The position numbers were made by a program, and so were the translations under genes. From Promicromonospora umidemergens (GTDB lineage Bacteria; Actinomycetota; Actinomycetes; Actinomycetales; Cellulomonadaceae), in assembly GCF_024171995.1 (NCBI RefSeq), contig NZ_JAMTCT010000006.1, positions 124,001 to 188,000 of the forward strand: a stretch of 64,000 nucleotides of DNA, given 5' to 3'. Positions 55,594 through 61,608 of the stretch are shown here, one piece after another (within the stretch, counting starts at the first letter, position 1; every line of letters starts with the position of its first letter). Below the pieces are notes generated by a model. It was not told the origin of the DNA. It worked only from the letters and a program-made list of their open reading frames with translations, and did no database searches.

Positions 55594-55733
55594 CCACGCC
55601 GAACCCGCCGTACGCCACCTCACAGCGCCGGTCCGGGCTCCGATTCGCTGTCCGAGCACGGCGTCCGGTATCCTCGTCAGGCCGCGCCAGGCTCCGGTCC
55701 GGTGGCCGCGTGCCCGCCTTGGTGTGGTCGCGA

Positions 55734-55818
55734 GGAGGATTCGCCTAGTGGCCTATGGCGCACGCTTGGAAAGCGTGTTGGGTTAACGCCCTCGGGGGTT
55801 CGAATCCCCCATCCTCCG
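55734..55818 (+). tRNA. tRNA-Ser (anticodon GGA)
   Basis: Acceptor stem GGAGGAT (55734-55740) pairs with ATCCTCC (55811-55817), the anticodon arm CACGC-TTGGAAA-GCGTG gives anticodon GGA, and a long variable arm precedes the T arm GGGGG-TTCGAAT-CCCCC. CCA is not encoded. The 3' end is the integration site of the following island. Confidence 0.96.
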
Positions 55819-55824
55819 CAGTGT
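55794..55824. repeat. Left attachment core (attL) inside the tRNA-Ser 3' end
   Basis: The T-arm to flank sequence at 55794-55824 recurs at 60059-60088 with only one C missing (CCCC for CCCCC), a 31/30-base near-exact direct repeat 4.26 kb apart. tRNA 3' ends are common integrase targets. Confidence 0.8.
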
Positions 55825-55827
55825 TTA

Positions 55828-55867
55828 GAGGCCCGGAACCGTTGATATTCCAACGGTTCCGGGCCTC
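55828..55867 (+). terminator. Terminator after tRNA-Ser
   Basis: Positions 55828-55844 pair perfectly with 55851-55867 (17 bp) around the loop ATATTC, followed by TTCTCGTT. A strong intrinsic terminator for the tRNA, lying inside the island's left end. Confidence 0.85.
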
Positions 55868-55890
55868 TTCTCGTTCCCCCAACCGTGCCC

Positions 55891-55911
55891 GTGGGCACAC
55901 CGTGGGCACAC
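55891..55911. other. Left pair of GTGGGCACAC motifs
   Basis: GTGGGCACAC at 55891-55900 and again at 55902-55911, an 11-base pitch. A matching pair occurs at the right end (59949-59969). Probably integrase arm sites. Confidence 0.5.
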
Positions 55912-55970
55912 GTTCGGAGGCGGCGCAGCCCGTCACGTTGCACGAGGTGGGCCCGCCGTCCGTCCGGACA

Positions 55971-56789
55971 TCAGCCCAGCAGTGACAGGAGAGCCGCCGC
56001 GGCGCCGTCGTCATCGATGGTGCCGGTCTCCTGGTCTGCCGCGTCCCGGACCTGCTCGGGCGCGTGACCCATGGCGATCGACCGCGTTGCCCACCGCAGC
56101 ATCTCCAGGTCGTTCTCACCGTCACCGATCGCGACTGTGGCCTGATACTCGACGCCGAGCTGGCGACGCACCTTGTCGAGCGCCGTCGCCTTCGACAGGG
56201 CAGGTGGTGTGACGTCGAGCCAGTCGAGCCGCGTGGCGATCGTCGTCAGGCTCATGGCGCGTAGCACAGGCACGAGAGCGAACGCGGCCGGGCCGTAGAT
56301 CGCGAGCCGCGGCGTCGGGTCCGCCCACAGTTTCTTGAGCGCGTCGACGCTGTGCTGCTCGCCGTTCAGCTCACCGTCGGGGAACGGGATGTTCACGAGG
56401 TACCCGACGCCGACGACCTCGGCCGCAACTCGGATGCCGGGCATGGCGTCGACGGCCACGCGCACGATGGGCTCGGGATCGACGACGTGCAAGTCGGTAA
56501 TCTCGTAGTCGCCACCCGTGACGTGTGCGGTCACGGCACCGTTGCTGGCCACGATCCACGTGTCATCGAGGCCGAACTCGGCTGCGACCGGCAGCGCGCC
56601 GACGAGCGACCGGCCCGTCGCCAGGACGATGTGGTGCCCGGCCACGCGGACCTGCTCGACGGCGTCGCGCACGGCGGTGGTGGCCGGCTGGCCGGTGTCT
56701 AGCAAGGTGCCGTCGATGTCACACGCGACGAGCGCCGGAGCGGCGAGGTCCATGTGCCGCGCTGTCCGCTGCGGCGTCGCTGAGGTCAT
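55971..56789 (-). CDS. HAD superfamily phosphatase (Cof-like)
   Basis: A protein of about 272 residues with the HAD motifs ACDIDGTLLD (nucleophile Asp), VLATGRS, and GDGENDLEML (metal Asp pair), and a C2-type cap between. Cof/YidA-like proteins dephosphorylate sugar phosphates or other small phosphates. A shorter start at ATG 56753 is possible. It is divergent from the small protein/DUF6879/XRE operon, with GTGCAATC repeats between, so may share its control. Confidence 0.88.
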   Translation of the reverse strand: MTSATPQRTARHMDLAAPALVACDIDGTLLDTGQPATTAVRDAVEQVRVAGHHIVLATGRSLVGALPVAAEFGLDDTWIVASNGAVTAHVTGGDYEITDLHVVDPEPIVRVAVDAMPGIRVAAEVVGVGYLVNIPFPDGELNGEQHSVDALKKLWADPTPRLAIYGPAAFALVPVLRAMSLTTIATRLDWLDVTPPALSKATALDKVRRQLGVEYQATVAIGDGENDLEMLRWATRSIAMGHAPEQVRDAADQETGTIDDDGAAAALLSLLG

Positions 56790-56813
56790 GTGCCCAGCGA
56801 ACCAGGAATAGGC

Positions 56814-56894
56814 GTGCAATCACATGGGATTGCACATGCGGGTGCAATCGAGCGGTATCGGCTGCACTCTCGTAGTGATTGCCTGGGATTGCCA
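56814..56894. promoter_or_regulatory. Repeated GTGCAATC/GATTGCAC operator motifs
   Basis: GTGCAATC (56814-56821) and GATTGCAC (56828-56835) form an inverted repeat with a six-base gap; a further GTGCAATC is at 56842-56849, and GATTGCC at 56877-56883 and 56888-56894. They lie between the divergent HAD gene and the 56960 operon, suggesting cooperative binding by the XRE protein encoded here. Confidence 0.55.
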
Positions 56895-56959
56895 CCCGGT
56901 GCGAGACTCCGGGTGTTGGTTTCCCGTGCTCAGCTCCACCCCGACCAACCGGAGGAACG

Positions 56960-57160
56960 ATGGAACTCGAATTCATGTGGAAGGACGCCAACTCCAACGT
57001 CACGGAGTGCCCCGCCCTGTATAAGGCCGAGGGCGGGTACGTCGTGCAGGGCGTCAAGCTCGACGACGCCACGCGCGCACAGCTGCGCCAGCTCGGCGAC
57101 GGCGAGGACGGCATCTTCGTGCCAACGAATGTCCTCGAGCGACTGAAGGGTGAGCTGTAG
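56960..57160 (+). CDS. Small protein of the DUF6879/XRE triad (66 aa)
   Basis: MELEFMWKDANSNVTECPALYK... is a 66-residue beta-rich protein (YVVQGVKLDD, GIFVPTNVLERL). GGAGGA sits three bases before ATG. Similar small proteins precede DUF6879 genes in Streptomyces; I recognise the arrangement, not a named family. Only two bases separate it from the next gene. Confidence 0.7.
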   Translation: MELEFMWKDANSNVTECPALYKAEGGYVVQGVKLDDATRAQLRQLGDGEDGIFVPTNVLERLKGEL

Positions 57161-57162
57161 GG

Positions 57163-57681
57163 GTGCAGGCAATCACAGGCGGCGAGTTCGGGCACTACAT
57201 GCGGACCTTCGAGTCCTCGGCGTTCCGGCTGGAGCAGCAAACCGGGTACGCCGTCGACTACGAGGCCGAGCAGTTCGCCGCGTTCCGCGCCGGTGACGTG
57301 CGCGACCCGCGAGAGATGCCCGAGTTCGCCGCCTGGCTCCCCACGGTGGCCGATCACGTCGAGCAGGGTCGCCGGATCTCGCGGGTGCGGATCCACCAGG
57401 AGCCACCGACCGACTACCAGCGTTGGACCCGGTACGTCGGGCATTGGAACGTCGAGGCGGGCGAGGACATCCGCTACGCCACGACCGCGCAGGCGCACCG
57501 AGTGGGGCTCCTGCCCGACGCAGGGCCATATGACTGGTGGCTGCTCGACACCGTCCGCGTCCTGCGCATGACCTTCAACGACGAGAACGTCTGTATCGAG
57601 CGCCACCTACTCACGGATGAGGCGTCCCTGGAGCACGCCCGGACGTGGCGAGAGCTGGCGATTCGCGCAGCAGGGGGCTGA
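57163..57681 (+). CDS. DUF6879 family protein
   Basis: A 172-residue protein: EFGHYMRTFESSAFRLEQQTGYAV, then ISRVRIHQEPPTDYQRW and YDWWLLDTVRVLRMTFND. The family occurs beside XRE-DUF5753 regulators in actinobacteria. Biochemical role unknown. GTG start, no strong Shine-Dalgarno; the previous stop is two bases away so coupling is likely. Confidence 0.78.
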   Translation: MQAITGGEFGHYMRTFESSAFRLEQQTGYAVDYEAEQFAAFRAGDVRDPREMPEFAAWLPTVADHVEQGRRISRVRIHQEPPTDYQRWTRYVGHWNVEAGEDIRYATTAQAHRVGLLPDAGPYDWWLLDTVRVLRMTFNDENVCIERHLLTDEASLEHARTWRELAIRAAGG

Positions 57682-57682
57682 C

Positions 57683-58552
57683 ATGTCACCGCGCCAAGCC
57701 GGCGCCGATCACCTCGAGGCAATCGGACGTCGGCTACGTGCGTTGCGGGAGCATGCTGAGCTGGACGGCAAAGACCTGGCCTCCCAGCTCGGCTGGTCCG
57801 CCTCCAAGGTGAGCCGTCTCGAACTGGCTCGGCAGGGCATCGCTCCGGCGGACATTGCAGCATGGATCACGGCCACGGACGGCACGCCTGATGAACGCGC
57901 GCTGCTGCTTGGCCTCCTCGACCAGGCCCGCGAGGAGGAACACACCCTGCGTCGCCGCGCGCGACACGGTCAGGCAGCGATCCAGGCCGGGTACAACACC
58001 CTCGTCGAGCGCTCCTCGCTCGTCCGGCTGTTCCAGACCGCCGTCGTGCCCGGCCTCCTGCAGACCCCTGACTACGCGCGAGCGATCCTCACCGCCGCGC
58101 AGCACCAGCTGCAGCTGTCCGTCGAGGACATCGACGCCGCAGTGTCGACCCGGATGGAGCGACAGCGGTACCTGTACAGCGGCCGCAGGTTCGAGTTGCT
58201 GATCGCGGAACCGGTGCTGCGCTGGGGCATCGTGCCGCCCGAGGTGATGTGCGAGCAGATCGACCGACTGCATGGCGCCATCGGCCTGGGCAACGTACGG
58301 CTCGGGATCCTGCCCCTCGGCGCACCGTTGGACCTCGTACCGCTGCACACCTTCGCGATGTACGACGATCTCGTCTGCGTCGAGACGTTCGGCCGAGAGC
58401 ACCGCTACACCGGATCCGAGGCCGAGACCTACGCCAACGCGTTCGACACCCTCTGGAGGTCTGCGGTGACCGGACACGACGCGCGCCGTCTGCTCGTCCA
58501 GGTCGCCGACGAACTCGTACCGTCAAGGACAAGAGCATCCCTCCGGTCGTAA
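57683..58552 (+). CDS. XRE-family regulator with DUF5753 domain
   Basis: A 289-residue protein. The HTH is at about residues 9-65 (IGRRLRALREHAELDGKDLASQLGWSASKVSRLE). From about 105 the DUF5753 domain includes VVPGLLQTPDYARAIL, RQRYLYSGRRFELLIAEPVL and LPLGAPLDLVPLHTF. Such regulators (WhiJ/Scr-like) are paired with small DUF397 or DUF6879 proteins; a toxin-antitoxin or developmental-control role has been proposed for relatives. Encoded one base after the DUF6879 stop. Confidence 0.88.
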   Translation: MSPRQAGADHLEAIGRRLRALREHAELDGKDLASQLGWSASKVSRLELARQGIAPADIAAWITATDGTPDERALLLGLLDQAREEEHTLRRRARHGQAAIQAGYNTLVERSSLVRLFQTAVVPGLLQTPDYARAILTAAQHQLQLSVEDIDAAVSTRMERQRYLYSGRRFELLIAEPVLRWGIVPPEVMCEQIDRLHGAIGLGNVRLGILPLGAPLDLVPLHTFAMYDDLVCVETFGREHRYTGSEAETYANAFDTLWRSAVTGHDARRLLVQVADELVPSRTRASLRS

Positions 58553-58644
58553 GGTCCCGGGCGCGCAGTGCCGCAGTCACACGCGCGAAACCTCACCCAC
58601 TCGGGTGCTGGCCGGACAAGTCAGCCCCAGCGAGGCTGAGGCAT

Positions 58645-59016
58645 ATGACACTGATTCTGGACAAAGCCACCGTCGAGCTCCGCGCATCCGACGTCGTGCT
58701 GACCTACACACCGAGCGACTCGCTTCCGGACGACGGAGTCGTGACACTCTCGACGACGTTCACCAGCCACGACGGCGAAAAGATACGGCAGCTCGGCTTC
58801 AAGCTCATCGACGGGCAGCTCACCGCGGTCTACTGGTTCGACCACCAGACAGCTCTGAACTACAACGCCGCGAGCCACATCACGCCGGGCAGGATCGCCG
58901 GCACATGGTCAATCGCGTTCCCGAACGAGGCGCTCGACGGCATCACCGCGGGCACCTGGCGCGCCGACCTCACTGTGGAGAACTACAACGCGCCGAGCAT
59001 CGACGGGGCTATCTGA
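58645..59016 (+). CDS. Hypothetical protein (123 aa)
   Basis: MTLILDKATVELRAS..., with alternating beta strands and an FKLIDGQLTAVYWFDHQTALNYN centre. No family recognised. It follows the XRE gene by 92 bases, on the same strand, in the island. Confidence 0.65.
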   Translation: MTLILDKATVELRASDVVLTYTPSDSLPDDGVVTLSTTFTSHDGEKIRQLGFKLIDGQLTAVYWFDHQTALNYNAASHITPGRIAGTWSIAFPNEALDGITAGTWRADLTVENYNAPSIDGAI

Positions 59017-59123
59017 CCGAGGGGGCCCGACGCCTTGCCATCTCCAGATGGCGGGGCGTCGTCGTGCGTAGATCGCCCGACCGAACCCGGACGGCGCCGA
59101 GATCCCGACGTAGCGTCACGAAC

Positions 59124-59401
59124 ATGACCACAGACAACGCCGCCACATGGGCAGCCCTGCAGTCCTACCCGACGACCCGCGACAAGATCGGCACAGGCAA
59201 GGAGCTGGACCTCGCCGACATCTCCGCATGCAGTCCGCGGGCACGCACGTGTGGCAGGCGTGGTGGGGAGACAACGGGCCCCAGCCTGGCGACCACTGGC
59301 AGATGCCCCACGACTTCGCAGAGTACGCAGCCGACCAGCTCGACGCCGAGGCGGCCCGGCTACGTGATCGGGCCGAGCACCTGCGCTCGAGCGGCTACTG
59401 A
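59124..59401 (+). pseudogene. Frameshifted small hypothetical gene
   Basis: ATG 59124 starts MTTDNAATWAALQSYPTTRD...ELDLADIS; near 59228 the sense continues in another frame with AMQSAGTHVWQAWWGDNG...DAEAARLRDRAEHL ending at TGA 59399-59401. Restoring one base (GCATG to GCGATG) would join them into a protein of about 92 residues. Either decayed cargo or a sequencing error. Confidence 0.5.
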
Positions 59402-59491
59402 GAGGGCGGGCAACCCTCGCGCTGGCCGAGGGGTAGGGTTCACCCGCTGCGATCCTCGCGTCACACCGACGGTCGGCGCGAGGATCACCTC

Positions 59492-59944
59492 ATGAGACCC
59501 GTCCGTGCCCTTGCAGTAGCCGCAGCTCTCGCCTGCACCCTTGCCGCATGCACCACCACGTCGGCGACCCCCGAGACCGCGGCGTCGGACGAGGTCGAGG
59601 TCGAGGTCGAGGCGTCCTACGACGCGCAGGCTGCCCTCGACGAGGGGGCGGACCGCCTCGAGGGCCACGAGGAGGGCTACGAGGACGGTCTGGCCGACGA
59701 CGACCCGCCCGAGTCCGGCGACAGCGAGGCGTGGGTCGAGGGTTACGCCGACGGGCAGGCCGCCCAGGAGAGCGTCTGCGGCCCGATCCTTGCCGACGCC
59801 ATGGAGGCCACCGACGCCGGCCGGAACGCGACCGTGGCCGATCTGGCGGACGACCTCTACCAGTGCCCGCCGTCCTACTACGACGACCTCACCGTCTACA
59901 CGCAGGAGCAGCTCGACAAGCTCGTGGACGAGATCACCGGCTGA
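59492..59944 (+). CDS. Lipoprotein, acidic, unknown function
   Basis: A 150-residue protein with a signal peptide and lipobox (ACTLAACTTT, Cys at about 20), then an acidic Glu/Asp/Val stretch and YEDGLADDDPPESGD. Two C-terminal Cys (VCGPIL, YQCPPSYY) may form a disulfide. The last cargo gene, 4 bases before the right arm motifs. Function unknown. Confidence 0.72.
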   Translation: MRPVRALAVAAALACTLAACTTTSATPETAASDEVEVEVEASYDAQAALDEGADRLEGHEEGYEDGLADDDPPESGDSEAWVEGYADGQAAQESVCGPILADAMEATDAGRNATVADLADDLYQCPPSYYDDLTVYTQEQLDKLVDEITG

Positions 59945-59948
59945 TTCC

Positions 59949-59969
59949 GTGGGCACCAGGTGGGCACAC
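59949..59969. other. Right pair of GTGGGCAC motifs
   Basis: GTGGGCACCA (59949-59958) and GTGGGCACAC (59960-59969) with the same 11-base pitch as the pair at the left end. Probably integrase arm sites. Confidence 0.5.
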
Positions 59970-60058
59970 CTGGACCCAAACACACGTGATTCACGGTGAT
60001 CTAAGGTGACGGGGAATGGCAGGATTCTGCGGCCCACGCCTTTGACCTGCACCTTCAA

Positions 60059-60088
60059 GGGGGTTCGAATCCCCATCCTCCGCAGTGT
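60059..60088. repeat. Right attachment core (attR)
   Basis: Copy of the tRNA-Ser 3' end and flank (GGGGGTTCGAATCCCC-ATCCTCCGCAGTGT pattern, one C short). The sequence 5' of it does not fold as a tRNA. Confidence 0.8.
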
Positions 60089-60163
60089 CGAAGGGCCCGA
60101 ACGTGTCCGTGGGCCCACACCACAGCAAGCACGTCCGACGGCGCCACCGATTGACCGATCACC

Positions 60164-60535
60164 TCACGACTGCCACTCCGCGCGGTAGTCCGGGTGATCG
60201 GCGAACGTCATGGCGTGGGCCAGGACCGCGACCTGGAGTCCAGCGAACAGGTTCCGGGTGACGATGGCTTCGTCCTCATGCCCGCTGTCCGACGCCTTGG
60301 TCAGGACCCGCCCAAGCTCCTCGTACGTCTCGACGATCGTCCGCTTGGCCGCTATGTCGACGAGGGCCCGAGCGGGGCTCCAGCGGTCGATATGCCGTTG
60401 CTGTTGCGGAAGGAACGGGGCGGCCGCCGAGGGCTCGCCATCAACCTCTCCGGGACGGGACGAGGCGCTGTCGGCCATACGCGCGGTCGACTCGTCCTCG
60501 TCCAGCCGTGCGGTCAGAAACTCGGTGATAGTCAT
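60164..60535 (-). CDS. DUF6221 family protein
   Basis: A 123-residue protein starting MTITEFLTARLDEDE and ending FADHPDYRAEWQS, with RALVDIAAKRTIVETYEELGR in the middle, all typical of DUF6221, which is common in actinobacterial phages and mobile elements. Function unknown. It lies outside the right attachment repeat, so it may mark an older insertion at the same site. Confidence 0.85.
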   Translation of the reverse strand: MTITEFLTARLDEDESTARMADSASSRPGEVDGEPSAAAPFLPQQQRHIDRWSPARALVDIAAKRTIVETYEELGRVLTKASDSGHEDEAIVTRNLFAGLQVAVLAHAMTFADHPDYRAEWQS

Positions 60536-60600
60536 GCCCCTGATCCTTCCACTCGGACCTTGGTCGCGTGCTCTCGCGCCTCGCAACGTCCGCTTCGACC

Positions 60601-60646
60601 ATGCGATGAGGCATGCTCCAGGGCTCTGGAGCATGCCTCATCGCAT
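60601..60646. terminator. Perfect 21-bp hairpin
   Basis: Positions 60601-60621 and 60626-60646 are exact reverse complements around GGCT. It lies downstream of the minus-strand 60723 gene and upstream of the DUF6221 gene; probably a terminator. Confidence 0.65.
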
Positions 60647-60722
60647 TCTGGGAGAGGACTTTCGCGGAAGCGGACCTGCACGCGGTCCCCTGCAGGGGAC
60701 CTGTCCTCCTTCGTCCGTCAGG

Positions 60723-60992
60723 TCAGACCGCGAAGGACCCTGTGCGCGAGTACGGCACGCTGTCCACGTACACCCACGATCCGTACGAGCGCAGCCACTG
60801 GCCGCCGTTCGCCAGCTCCAGGACGCCGTCCTTCTGTCCGGAGACCTCGATCTCGATCTCCCGGCGCTCGACCAGGTGCACGTCACCGTTAGCCAGGACG
60901 ATGCGGTGAACGGGTACCCCCTCGTTCACGAACTTGTCGGCGTCGACGACCTTCAGGTGCTTCTCGTCGAGAACGTAGTACGTCGTGCTCAT
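60723..60992 (-). CDS. Hypothetical protein (89 aa)
   Basis: MSTTYYVLDEKHLKVVDADK..., mostly predicted beta strands with no recognised family. ATG 60992 is the start; AGGAA occurs upstream. Followed by the hairpin at 60601-60646. Confidence 0.65.
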   Translation of the reverse strand: MSTTYYVLDEKHLKVVDADKFVNEGVPVHRIVLANGDVHLVERREIEIEVSGQKDGVLELANGGQWLRSYGSWVYVDSVPYSRTGSFAV

Positions 60993-61101
60993 CGCGTTCC
61001 TTTCGTCGCCCCCCGCACGCCCGGTGCGCAGCGGGAGCGCCATTGAAGCCACGGCGCCCCTCTGGCGCCCGGACTGCCCAGTATGCCCTCGATGTCCCGC
61101 T

Positions 61102-61608
61102 TCATCCGCCGGGCGGCACGTCATAGCGTCGGTAGCCCGCGGCCATCGGCCCGGACGGGTCGATGCTCTGCAGGATGGCTTCGCTGATCGCCGCGAGCTG
61201 CTCCGTCTGCTCCGGGGTGAGCACGTCGACGACGTGCCGGCGCACCGATGCGACGTGCCCGGGCGCCGCAGCGCGCATCTTCGCCCGCCCGTCGGCGGTG
61301 AGCCGCGCGTTGGTGACCCTGCCGTTCTCGGGGCAGGGCACCCGCTCGACGAACCCGCGGCCCTCCAGGCGCTGCACGACGTGCGAGAGCCGCGACAGCG
61401 TCGAGTTCGTCGCCGCGGCCAGCTCGGCCATCCGCAGAGTCCCGCCGGGGGTCTCGGACAGCACCGCCATGACGAAGTACTCGAAGTGCGTCATGCCGGA
61501 GTCGCGCCGCAGCTGGCTGTCGAGAACCCCGGGGAGCAGCTCGAGCACGGCGACGAAGCGCACCCACGCCGCCATCTGGTGACGGTCGAGCCACGGAGTG
61601 TCGTTCAT
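61102..61608 (-). CDS. MarR family transcriptional regulator
   Basis: A 168-residue winged-helix protein with MTHFEYFVMAVLSETPGGTLRMAELAAATNSTLSRLSHVVQRLEGRGFVERVPCPENGR. Divergent from a DoxX gene, with a TTGAAGCTTCAA palindrome and a near copy between, so it probably represses that gene and itself. Confidence 0.9.
   Translation of the reverse strand: MNDTPWLDRHQMAAWVRFVAVLELLPGVLDSQLRRDSGMTHFEYFVMAVLSETPGGTLRMAELAAATNSTLSRLSHVVQRLEGRGFVERVPCPENGRVTNARLTADGRAKMRAAAPGHVASVRRHVVDVLTPEQTEQLAAISEAILQSIDPSGPMAAGYRRYDVPPGG

Follow-up and report, generated by a model that had tools for sequence, protein, structure and literature searches.

An integrase-free 4.2-kb element at tRNA-Ser(GGA) of Promicromonospora umidemergens, probably a stranded CIME-like remnant

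The DNA analysed here (the window, 64,000 nucleotides of the Promicromonospora umidemergens genome) contains an intact tRNA-Ser(GGA) gene followed by an island in which seven of the ORFs between two att copies were taken as genes and searched against Pfam, NCBIfam and PHROGs. The features of the locus are as follows.

55734..55819, + strand: tRNA-Ser(GGA), the integration target (ARAGORN)
55794..55824, + strand: left att core GGGGGTTCGAATCCCCCATCCTCCGCAGTGT, 31 bases, within and just beyond the intact tRNA 3' end (from the sequence)
55827..55868, + strand: hairpin directly 3' of the tRNA with 18-bp perfect arms (inverted repeat I16), putative tRNA terminator
55891..55909, + strand: left arm-type pair GTGGGCACACCGTGGGCAC, pitch 11 (motif positions)
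55971..56789, - strand: HAD-IIB / Cof-like hydrolase, start codon uncertain (Pfam PF08282, E 6.9e-39; NCBIfam TIGR01484, above cut-off)
56960..57160, + strand: 66-aa protein of no family; related ORFs adjoin DUF6879 at some other loci
57163..57681, + strand: DUF6879 protein (PF21806, E 1.8e-40)
57683..58552, + strand: regulator with XRE-type HTH and DUF5753 (PF13560, PF19054)
58645..59016, + strand: 123-aa protein, no family (Pfam, NCBIfam, PHROGs)
59147..59401, + strand: 84-aa ORF, no family (Pfam, NCBIfam, PHROGs)
59492..59944, + strand: 150-aa protein, lipoprotein-like N-terminus by eye, no family (sequence, Pfam)
59949..59967, + strand: right arm-type pair GTGGGCACCAGGTGGGCAC, pitch 11 (motif positions)
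59985..60009, + strand: triple repeat of 10-base pitch, CGTGATTCACGGTGATCTAAGGTGA, a possible RDF (Xis) site (shuffle test)
60059..60088, + strand: right att core, 30 bases, the left core minus one C (from the sequence)
60096..60118, + strand: decayed copy of the left-end sequence at 55878-55900 (19/23 identical), outside the island, read as an older end scar

Four of the seven ORFs had no Pfam family at E 0.001, and the PHROGs matches were to a hydrolase, a DNA-binding protein and a repressor, with weak hits to a phosphoheptose isomerase and to an Rz-like spanin (E 0.009). For the 66-aa protein, no match to DUF397 was obtained at E values up to 1. The first-pass annotation had stated that no recombinase lies between the att copies; likewise, we found no integrase or other recombination gene among the seven ORFs in the three databases, and tblastn with integrase queries gave nothing at E <= 0.01 in the window (best E in 55701-61200, 0.15). 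Relaxases, FtsK-like proteins and coupling proteins were also without a match among these ORFs.

The core repeat agrees with the earlier description of a 31-base tRNA-Ser 3' segment recurring downstream with one base missing, and it places the integrated element at 55825-60058 (4.2 kb; GC content 67.9% vs 70.4% for the window). The missing base in the right core fits decay of a copy freed from tRNA function. The island was absent at tRNA-Ser in all 12 same-genus relatives (one genome per species), in which the fetched stretch carries a single tRNA-Ser. In two of them, G012 and G003, the right flank (from 60164 or 60155 on) directly follows the tRNA, forming empty sites; Promicromonospora iranensis is one of this pair. 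In G002 and G005, the deeper flank (from 61114 or 61107 on) begins less than 50 bases from the tRNA-side match. No second att core was detected above shuffles in G003, G012 or G025. Empty-site alleles, which the first-pass annotation had proposed to seek in close relatives, therefore exist, and the segment is not common to all relatives. The duplicated core, the intact tRNA, the arm pairs described below and the empty sites support the architecture proposed earlier, and the segment is an integrated element. The match between 60096..60118 and 55878-55900 was equalled in none of 2,000 shuffles.

Matched pairs at 11-base pitch had been reported inside both ends, and all four positions of GTGGGCAC were reproduced (55891, 55902, 59949 and 59960, every copy on the + strand). 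The left TGGGCAC copies start 72 and 83 bases past the tRNA end, as they do in G003 and G025. Taken singly, the 8-mer GTGGGCAC is no rarity (the window has 7 vs 4.97 expected by shuffling; 21 of 100 shuffles reached 7). The exact pair at pitch 11, however, occurs twice in the 6,600,894-base genome, both times at the island ends, where base composition predicts 0.023 occurrences, and the reversed-pattern control pair gave none at zero mismatches. When two mismatches were allowed, 15 sites were found in this genome vs 16 for the reversed control, the exact ones being the island ends only. Across the family, 4 of 221 genomes carry the exact pair, this genome included (3/220 others). The triple repeat at 59985..60009 was significant in shuffles at lag 10 (P 0.001); lags of 9-12 were tried, and the others were not significant. 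None of the four arms has decayed; an old remnant would rather be expected to show some decay, and this counts against reading the island as stranded.

A prophage at tRNA-Lys in the same genome (G000, contig C13; about 35 kb) is a positive control for this end anatomy. Like the island, it has a repeated core at the 3' end of its tRNA, pitch-11 arm pairs in equal orientation at both ends, and a triple of 10-base pitch at the tRNA-distal end, which in the prophage is the integrase end. Unlike the island, its arms read TGGCGCA rather than TGGGCAC, and it has an integrase and phage genes.

The first-pass annotation had suggested a search of the genome for a tyrosine integrase with such repeats in its own attP; integrases with these repeats in their flanks were found in other genomes but not in this one. 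Twenty loci from the 21 PF00589 matches of the genome were examined (match plus 1.5-kb flanks), and none had a TGGGCAC pair at <=1 mismatch per arm, so that a helper encoded by this genome was rejected. Since no cognate integrase was found in its own genome, the island is probably stranded. Elsewhere, viral contigs, one family genome and Actinomadura have TGGGCAC pairs next to integrases, examples being the integrases L082 (gap of 313 bases) and L088. Integrases at the viral loci were detected with phmmer (12/43 loci), as a custom HMM was insensitive (2/43). By a conditional proximity test that was picked, with its cut-offs, after the data had been seen, 9 of these 12 loci had the pair within 450 bases of the integrase (2.45 expected, P 3.9e-5) and 8 had it within 300 bases (P 1.5e-4). 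Against the reversed-pattern control at 400 bases, the difference was not significant (8/43 vs 1/14, Fisher P 0.29), and the one control locus near an integrase weakens the argument from viral contigs. None of the viral contigs combined the tRNA-Ser core with the arms.

Two or more copies of the tRNA-Ser core occur in at least 24 of the 220 family genomes, P. umidemergens among them, in some cases on different contigs, and 15 of the 23 others were examined at tRNA-Ser(GGA). Integrase matches were present in at least 11 of the 15; G072, G096, G122 and G161 had no integrase with the phmmer queries or among the Pfam matches listed. The exact TGGGCAC pair at pitch 11 was absent from all 15 at tRNA-Ser(GGA), which indicates that other integrases use this gene and counts against the reading of the island as a stranded remnant; an integrase-bearing parent with TGGGCAC arms was thus sought there without success. 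A left-end scan of contigs from 84,980 species returned three loci, namely a scar in G003, Actinomadura and a Clostridia MAG (records of this or very near genomes were possibly excluded).

The genes for DUF6879, XRE/DUF5753 and the HAD hydrolase recur as a module in Promicromonospora, sometimes beside tRNAs, and at some of the tRNA-adjacent loci no integrase was found with the queries used. In G002, the order is tRNA-Gly, a truncated integrase, then HAD-XRE-DUF6879. The DNA there aligns over 441 bases with an intact locus in the P. umidemergens genome at 91.8% identity, and about 39 codons of the integrase gene remain within this match; integrase loss beside the module is therefore seen in G002. 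At two other module loci (L182 and L180), no att repeat exceeded matches of 11 and 12 bases. DUF6879 relatives were not found in viral contigs, and a literature search returned no publication on DUF6879. The position of the HAD gene in G003, on the opposite side of DUF6221, indicates that cargo has been reshuffled at the tRNA-Ser locus.

Taken together, these data make it probable that the 4.2-kb tRNA-Ser(GGA) element entered through a TGGGCAC-binding tyrosine integrase and was stranded by integrase loss, leaving a CIME-like remnant with both att sites. An integrase recognising the TGGGCAC arm-type sites would have inserted the element into the tRNA 3' end, the arm pairs being its putative binding sites and the 10-base triple a candidate binding site for an excisionase. 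The integrase may once have been encoded in cis and later deleted; no fragment of it is left in the island, so past possession in cis is unproven for the island itself. Renewed movement might follow the arrival of a cognate integrase and excisionase, or an element integrating in tandem at one of the att sites could carry the island along.

The island belongs to a kind of stranded genomic island that is already known. It has direct-repeat att sites and neither a recombination gene nor a conjugation or mobilisation gene, as expected of a CIME. It lacks the integrase and transfer genes of its own that define an ICE or AICE, the integrase of its own that defines an IME or mobile genomic island, and the structural, packaging or integrase genes of a prophage or phage satellite. 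As outlined in PMC7563491, CIMEs keep attL and attR without recombination and conjugation genes and have a classical size of 1.2-13 kb. The island resembles the CIMEs outlined there in its two att sites, its position at a gene 3' end, its cargo and its size; it differs in that its ICE or IME origin is putative, no integrase-bearing neighbour lies in tandem, and the integrase type is deduced from the arms only. No complete ICE or IME parent was found, the one integrase truncation beside the module being that of G002. In PMC3146451, Dehalococcoides ssrA islands without integration modules are suggested to be possible cis-mobilizable elements; these are likewise att-flanked, integrase-less and located at one RNA gene, although the integrase-bearing islands described there use a serine recombinase, whereas the anatomy at tRNA-Ser points to a tyrosine integrase. 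For the cargo, the Streptomyces XRE-DUF397 pairs as presented in PMC10364602 are similar in that a DUF5753 XRE regulator adjoins a small-protein gene; in the island, however, the 66-aa protein has no DUF397 match, and DUF6879 and HAD are extra partners.

The first-pass annotation had left open whether the island is a decayed element or a satellite mobilised in trans, and the evidence leans toward decay. A true satellite would never have needed its own integrase, because a helper integrase acting in trans would use the same arm and excisionase sites. The cis sites all look intact bar one core base, integrases with matching arms exist in other genomes, and the module recurs beside tRNAs where our queries found no integrase; however, the genome lacks a detectable TGGGCAC-arm helper, the truncation in G002 favours loss, and the 84,980-species scan revealed no further island, and just 3 of the 220 other family genomes carry the exact pair. 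We therefore consider a satellite unlikely, and trans-mobilisation of the island is possible but unsupported. It is similarly doubtful that the DUF6879-XRE/DUF5753-HAD module defines a group of integrase-free tRNA mini-islands in Promicromonospora, with working ends and mobilised in trans by any related arm-class integrase.

Slightly less probable still is a composite origin, in which two elements in tandem at the tRNA would have recombined or undergone a deletion between them, so that ends from different parents were joined and the integrase was lost with the deleted part. The older end scar just outside the right core and the HAD position beyond DUF6221 in G003 are consistent with such an event, but the left and right arm pairs share their motif and pitch, and G012 has a simple empty site. 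This reading overlaps that of a stranded remnant and does not exclude it. A tandem copy of the tRNA that later decayed, or a repeat arising by chance, is very improbable despite the one-base degeneracy of the right core, because the repeat covers the tRNA 3' end only, ARAGORN found no second tRNA, the matched arm pairs (0.023 expected in the genome) would be unexplained, and all 12 relatives have a single tRNA-Ser and no island.

The stranded element is unusually legible, since its cores, arm pairs and candidate excisionase site can be read and a prophage in the same genome serves as a control. The island at tRNA-Ser thereby makes trans-mobilisation directly testable, and DUF6879, XRE/DUF5753 and HAD constitute a recurrent, little-described cargo module of tRNA-targeted elements in the genus.

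The window lies on contig C6 (124001-188000) of the source genome, which comprises 6.6 Mb in 65 contigs. The first-pass annotation reported that a 31-base segment of the tRNA-Ser 3' end is repeated downstream, one base short, and that pairs of GTGGGCAC at the same pitch lie at both ends of the enclosed island. Both observations were reproduced, and its positions for the pairs (55891/55902 and 59949/59960) were correct.

Features of the tRNA-Ser site and the island
55734-55819, + strand: tRNA-Ser(GGA) (ARAGORN)
55794-55824: left core, the tRNA end and five further bases, 31 bases (sequence repeat)
60059-60088: right core, the left core minus one C (sequence repeat)
55891, 55902, 59949 and 59960, all + strand: four copies of GTGGGCAC (motif search)
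Between the cores, in order:
first, - strand: HAD-type hydrolase gene (family search)
second: 66-aa protein (ORF)
third: DUF6879 protein (family search)
fourth: XRE regulator with DUF5753 (family search)
fifth to seventh: three ORFs without families (ORF and family searches)

As a lone 8-mer, GTGGGCAC was unremarkable (7 seen, 4.97 expected). The exact pair at 11-base pitch occurred twice genome-wide, at the two island ends, against 0.023 expected from base composition, and was found in 4 of 221 family genomes, the source genome included. Searches of the seven island ORFs for an integrase, a relaxase and phage structural genes found none; tblastn with integrase queries revealed no remnant: the best E value within the island was 0.15, and no hit in the whole window reached E <= 0.01. 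This agrees with the earlier statement that no recombinase is encoded between the cores. PADLOC returned a single weak HTH match and nothing else. The GC content was 67.9% in the island and 70.4% in the window.

A query of the tRNA and its upstream flank had matches in all 59 genomes searched, the source genome among them, and the locus was compared in 12 other same-genus genomes (one per species). The island was absent from the tRNA-Ser site in all 12; the proposed comparison with relatives thus yielded empty alleles, for example in G012 and G003, and bore out the reading of an integrated element. In G012, the tRNA and terminator are joined directly to the counterpart of 60164-60559 and then to that of 61114 onward. 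In G003, the tRNA, terminator and an arm pair are followed directly by the counterpart of 60155-60588, and in G002 and G005 the flank from 61114 or 61107 begins <=50 bases from the tRNA-side match. From these junctions, we conclude that the island was inserted more recently and that 60089 to ~61110 looks like an older insertion. Within this older layer, a long inverted repeat (60585-60662) separates DUF6221 from the next small ORF; its 37-base arms are 84% complementary around a loop of 4 bases. Beyond DUF6221, G003 carries a HAD gene 84% identical to that of the island, with NUDIX-like and XRE-like ORFs close by (identified by eye).

The tRNA-Ser site retains GTGGGCACAGCATGGGCAC in G003 and GTGGGCACCGATTGGGCAC in G025, a member of another genus, and TGGGCAC starts 72 and 83 bases past the tRNA end in both genomes and in the window alike. 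Just outside the right core, 60096-60118 matches the left end (55878-55900) at 19 of 23 positions, a degenerate copy equalled by 0 of 2000 shuffles; compared with other genomes, this stretch gave P 0.0015 for G025 and weak values for G003 (0.0225) and G012 (0.03). The retained motifs and the degenerate copy therefore make repeated insertion of elements with such ends at tRNA-Ser(GGA) probable. This tRNA is an apparent integration hotspot: by hand count, at least two core copies were present in 24 of 220 family genomes, and the 15 multi-core family genomes examined lacked an exact TGGGCAC pair at 11-base pitch.

Pairs of this type were also found beside integrases, in keeping with an arm-type role. 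In another family genome (G062, locus L082), a tyrosine integrase adjoins a tRNA-like core, identified by eye, and an inverted GTGCCCAC, and a GTGGGCAC pair lies 313 bases from the tyrosine integrase. In Actinomadura rupiterrae (L088:5750-7540), a tRNA-like 3' fragment and a terminator-like inverted repeat, both identified by eye, precede a ATGGGCAC pair and then an integrase; ARAGORN found no whole tRNA in this locus. Viral contigs contained the G-type pair in 20 loci and the A-type pair in 23, with an integrase <=450 bases from the pair in 9 of these 43. Counting against this association, the reversed pattern gave 14 loci, 1 near an integrase, and the proportions at 400 bases did not differ significantly (8/43 vs 1/14, P 0.29). 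Among the 12 viral loci with any integrase (phmmer), 9 had it <=450 bases from the pair (2.45 expected, P 3.9e-5) and 8 <=300 bases (2.12 expected, P 1.5e-4), both cut-offs having been picked after the data were seen. Three GTGGGCAC copies at 11-base pitch lie ~50 bases from tRNA-Val(GAC) in G105 (L083:8295-8324), where phmmer found no integrase across the 17-kb locus; they are possibly another end scar.

TGRCGCA pairs at 11-base pitch were sought in 13 genus genomes and turned up at 19 places in 10 of them. Three are in the source genome, and two of these lie on contig C13, separated by 34.8 kb: the first adjoins tRNA-Lys, and the second a tRNA-Lys 3'-end repeat and an integrase. Since the C13 stretch carries portal, tape-measure and tail genes, it is a prophage. 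It spans ~53.2-88.3 kb (L232, L233) at tRNA-Lys(TTT), each end has a TGGCGCA pair, and a HAD gene lies close to the tRNA end; it serves as a positive control for the anatomy of the island. As in the island, the pairs share one orientation and lie at both ends inside the cores. Triple repeats at 10-base pitch occur at the prophage integrase end (P 0.0005) and at the island right end (59985-60009, P 0.001), and neither end showed significance at lags 9, 11 or 12. In stretches chosen by eye, the triple was weaker in L082 (P 0.0445; lag 12, P 0.036) and not significant in L088 (P 0.072). Judged from its sequence pattern, the triple is a candidate excisionase site.

PF21806 (DUF6879) had 15 matches across 7 of 13 genus genomes. 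Excluding the island and one weak G012 match, all 13 remaining loci (L218-L230) share the order and orientation of DUF6879, XRE/DUF5753 and HAD hydrolase genes; 4 have a 66-aa-like ORF, and the HAD reading frame is split in one (L221). The island module (55971-58552) differs in that its HAD gene is flipped and placed in front. A tRNA lies <=1 kb away in 4 of the 13 (P about 1e-4 to 2e-4, assuming 60-70 tRNAs per genome); two of these four adjoin tRNA-Met and may go back to a single ancestral site. The G005 module lies after tRNA-Lys and an intact arm pair, and integrase queries found no integrase there. In G002 (L218:1400-4677), tRNA-Gly is followed by a truncated integrase and then HAD, XRE and DUF6879. 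Across 441 aligned bases, the G002 locus shares 91.8% identity with the tRNA-Gly locus of the source genome (L011), where the integrase frame is intact, and the match stops ~39 codons past the likely integrase start. Because of this truncation, integrase loss with the module left beside a tRNA is seen in G002, not in the island itself. A literature search on DUF6879 found no paper.

The suggested search of the source genome for an integrase with TGGGCAC repeats was carried out, and no cognate integrase emerged: a TGGGCAC pair (<=1 mismatch per arm) was present in none of the 20 integrase loci examined, of 21 matches. The best supported account is integrase-mediated insertion with later loss of the integrase and retention of the cis sites. 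A TGGGCAC-type tyrosine integrase would have inserted the element at the tRNA 3' end, leaving the tRNA whole; the integrase would have been lost later and the cis sites would have persisted intact. For the element to move again, either a cognate integrase supplied in trans or tandem accretion would be needed. PMC7563491 and PMC3146451 describe movement by accretion and the term CIME (cis-mobilizable element, keeping attL and attR without recombination or conjugation genes), and PMC8369830 gives a Streptomyces example. The first-pass annotation had thus read a real arrangement correctly; of its two readings, a satellite mobilised in trans has a low probability, and the island is most likely a CIME-like remnant. 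CIME-like elements are already a known kind, of which the island is a newly found example.
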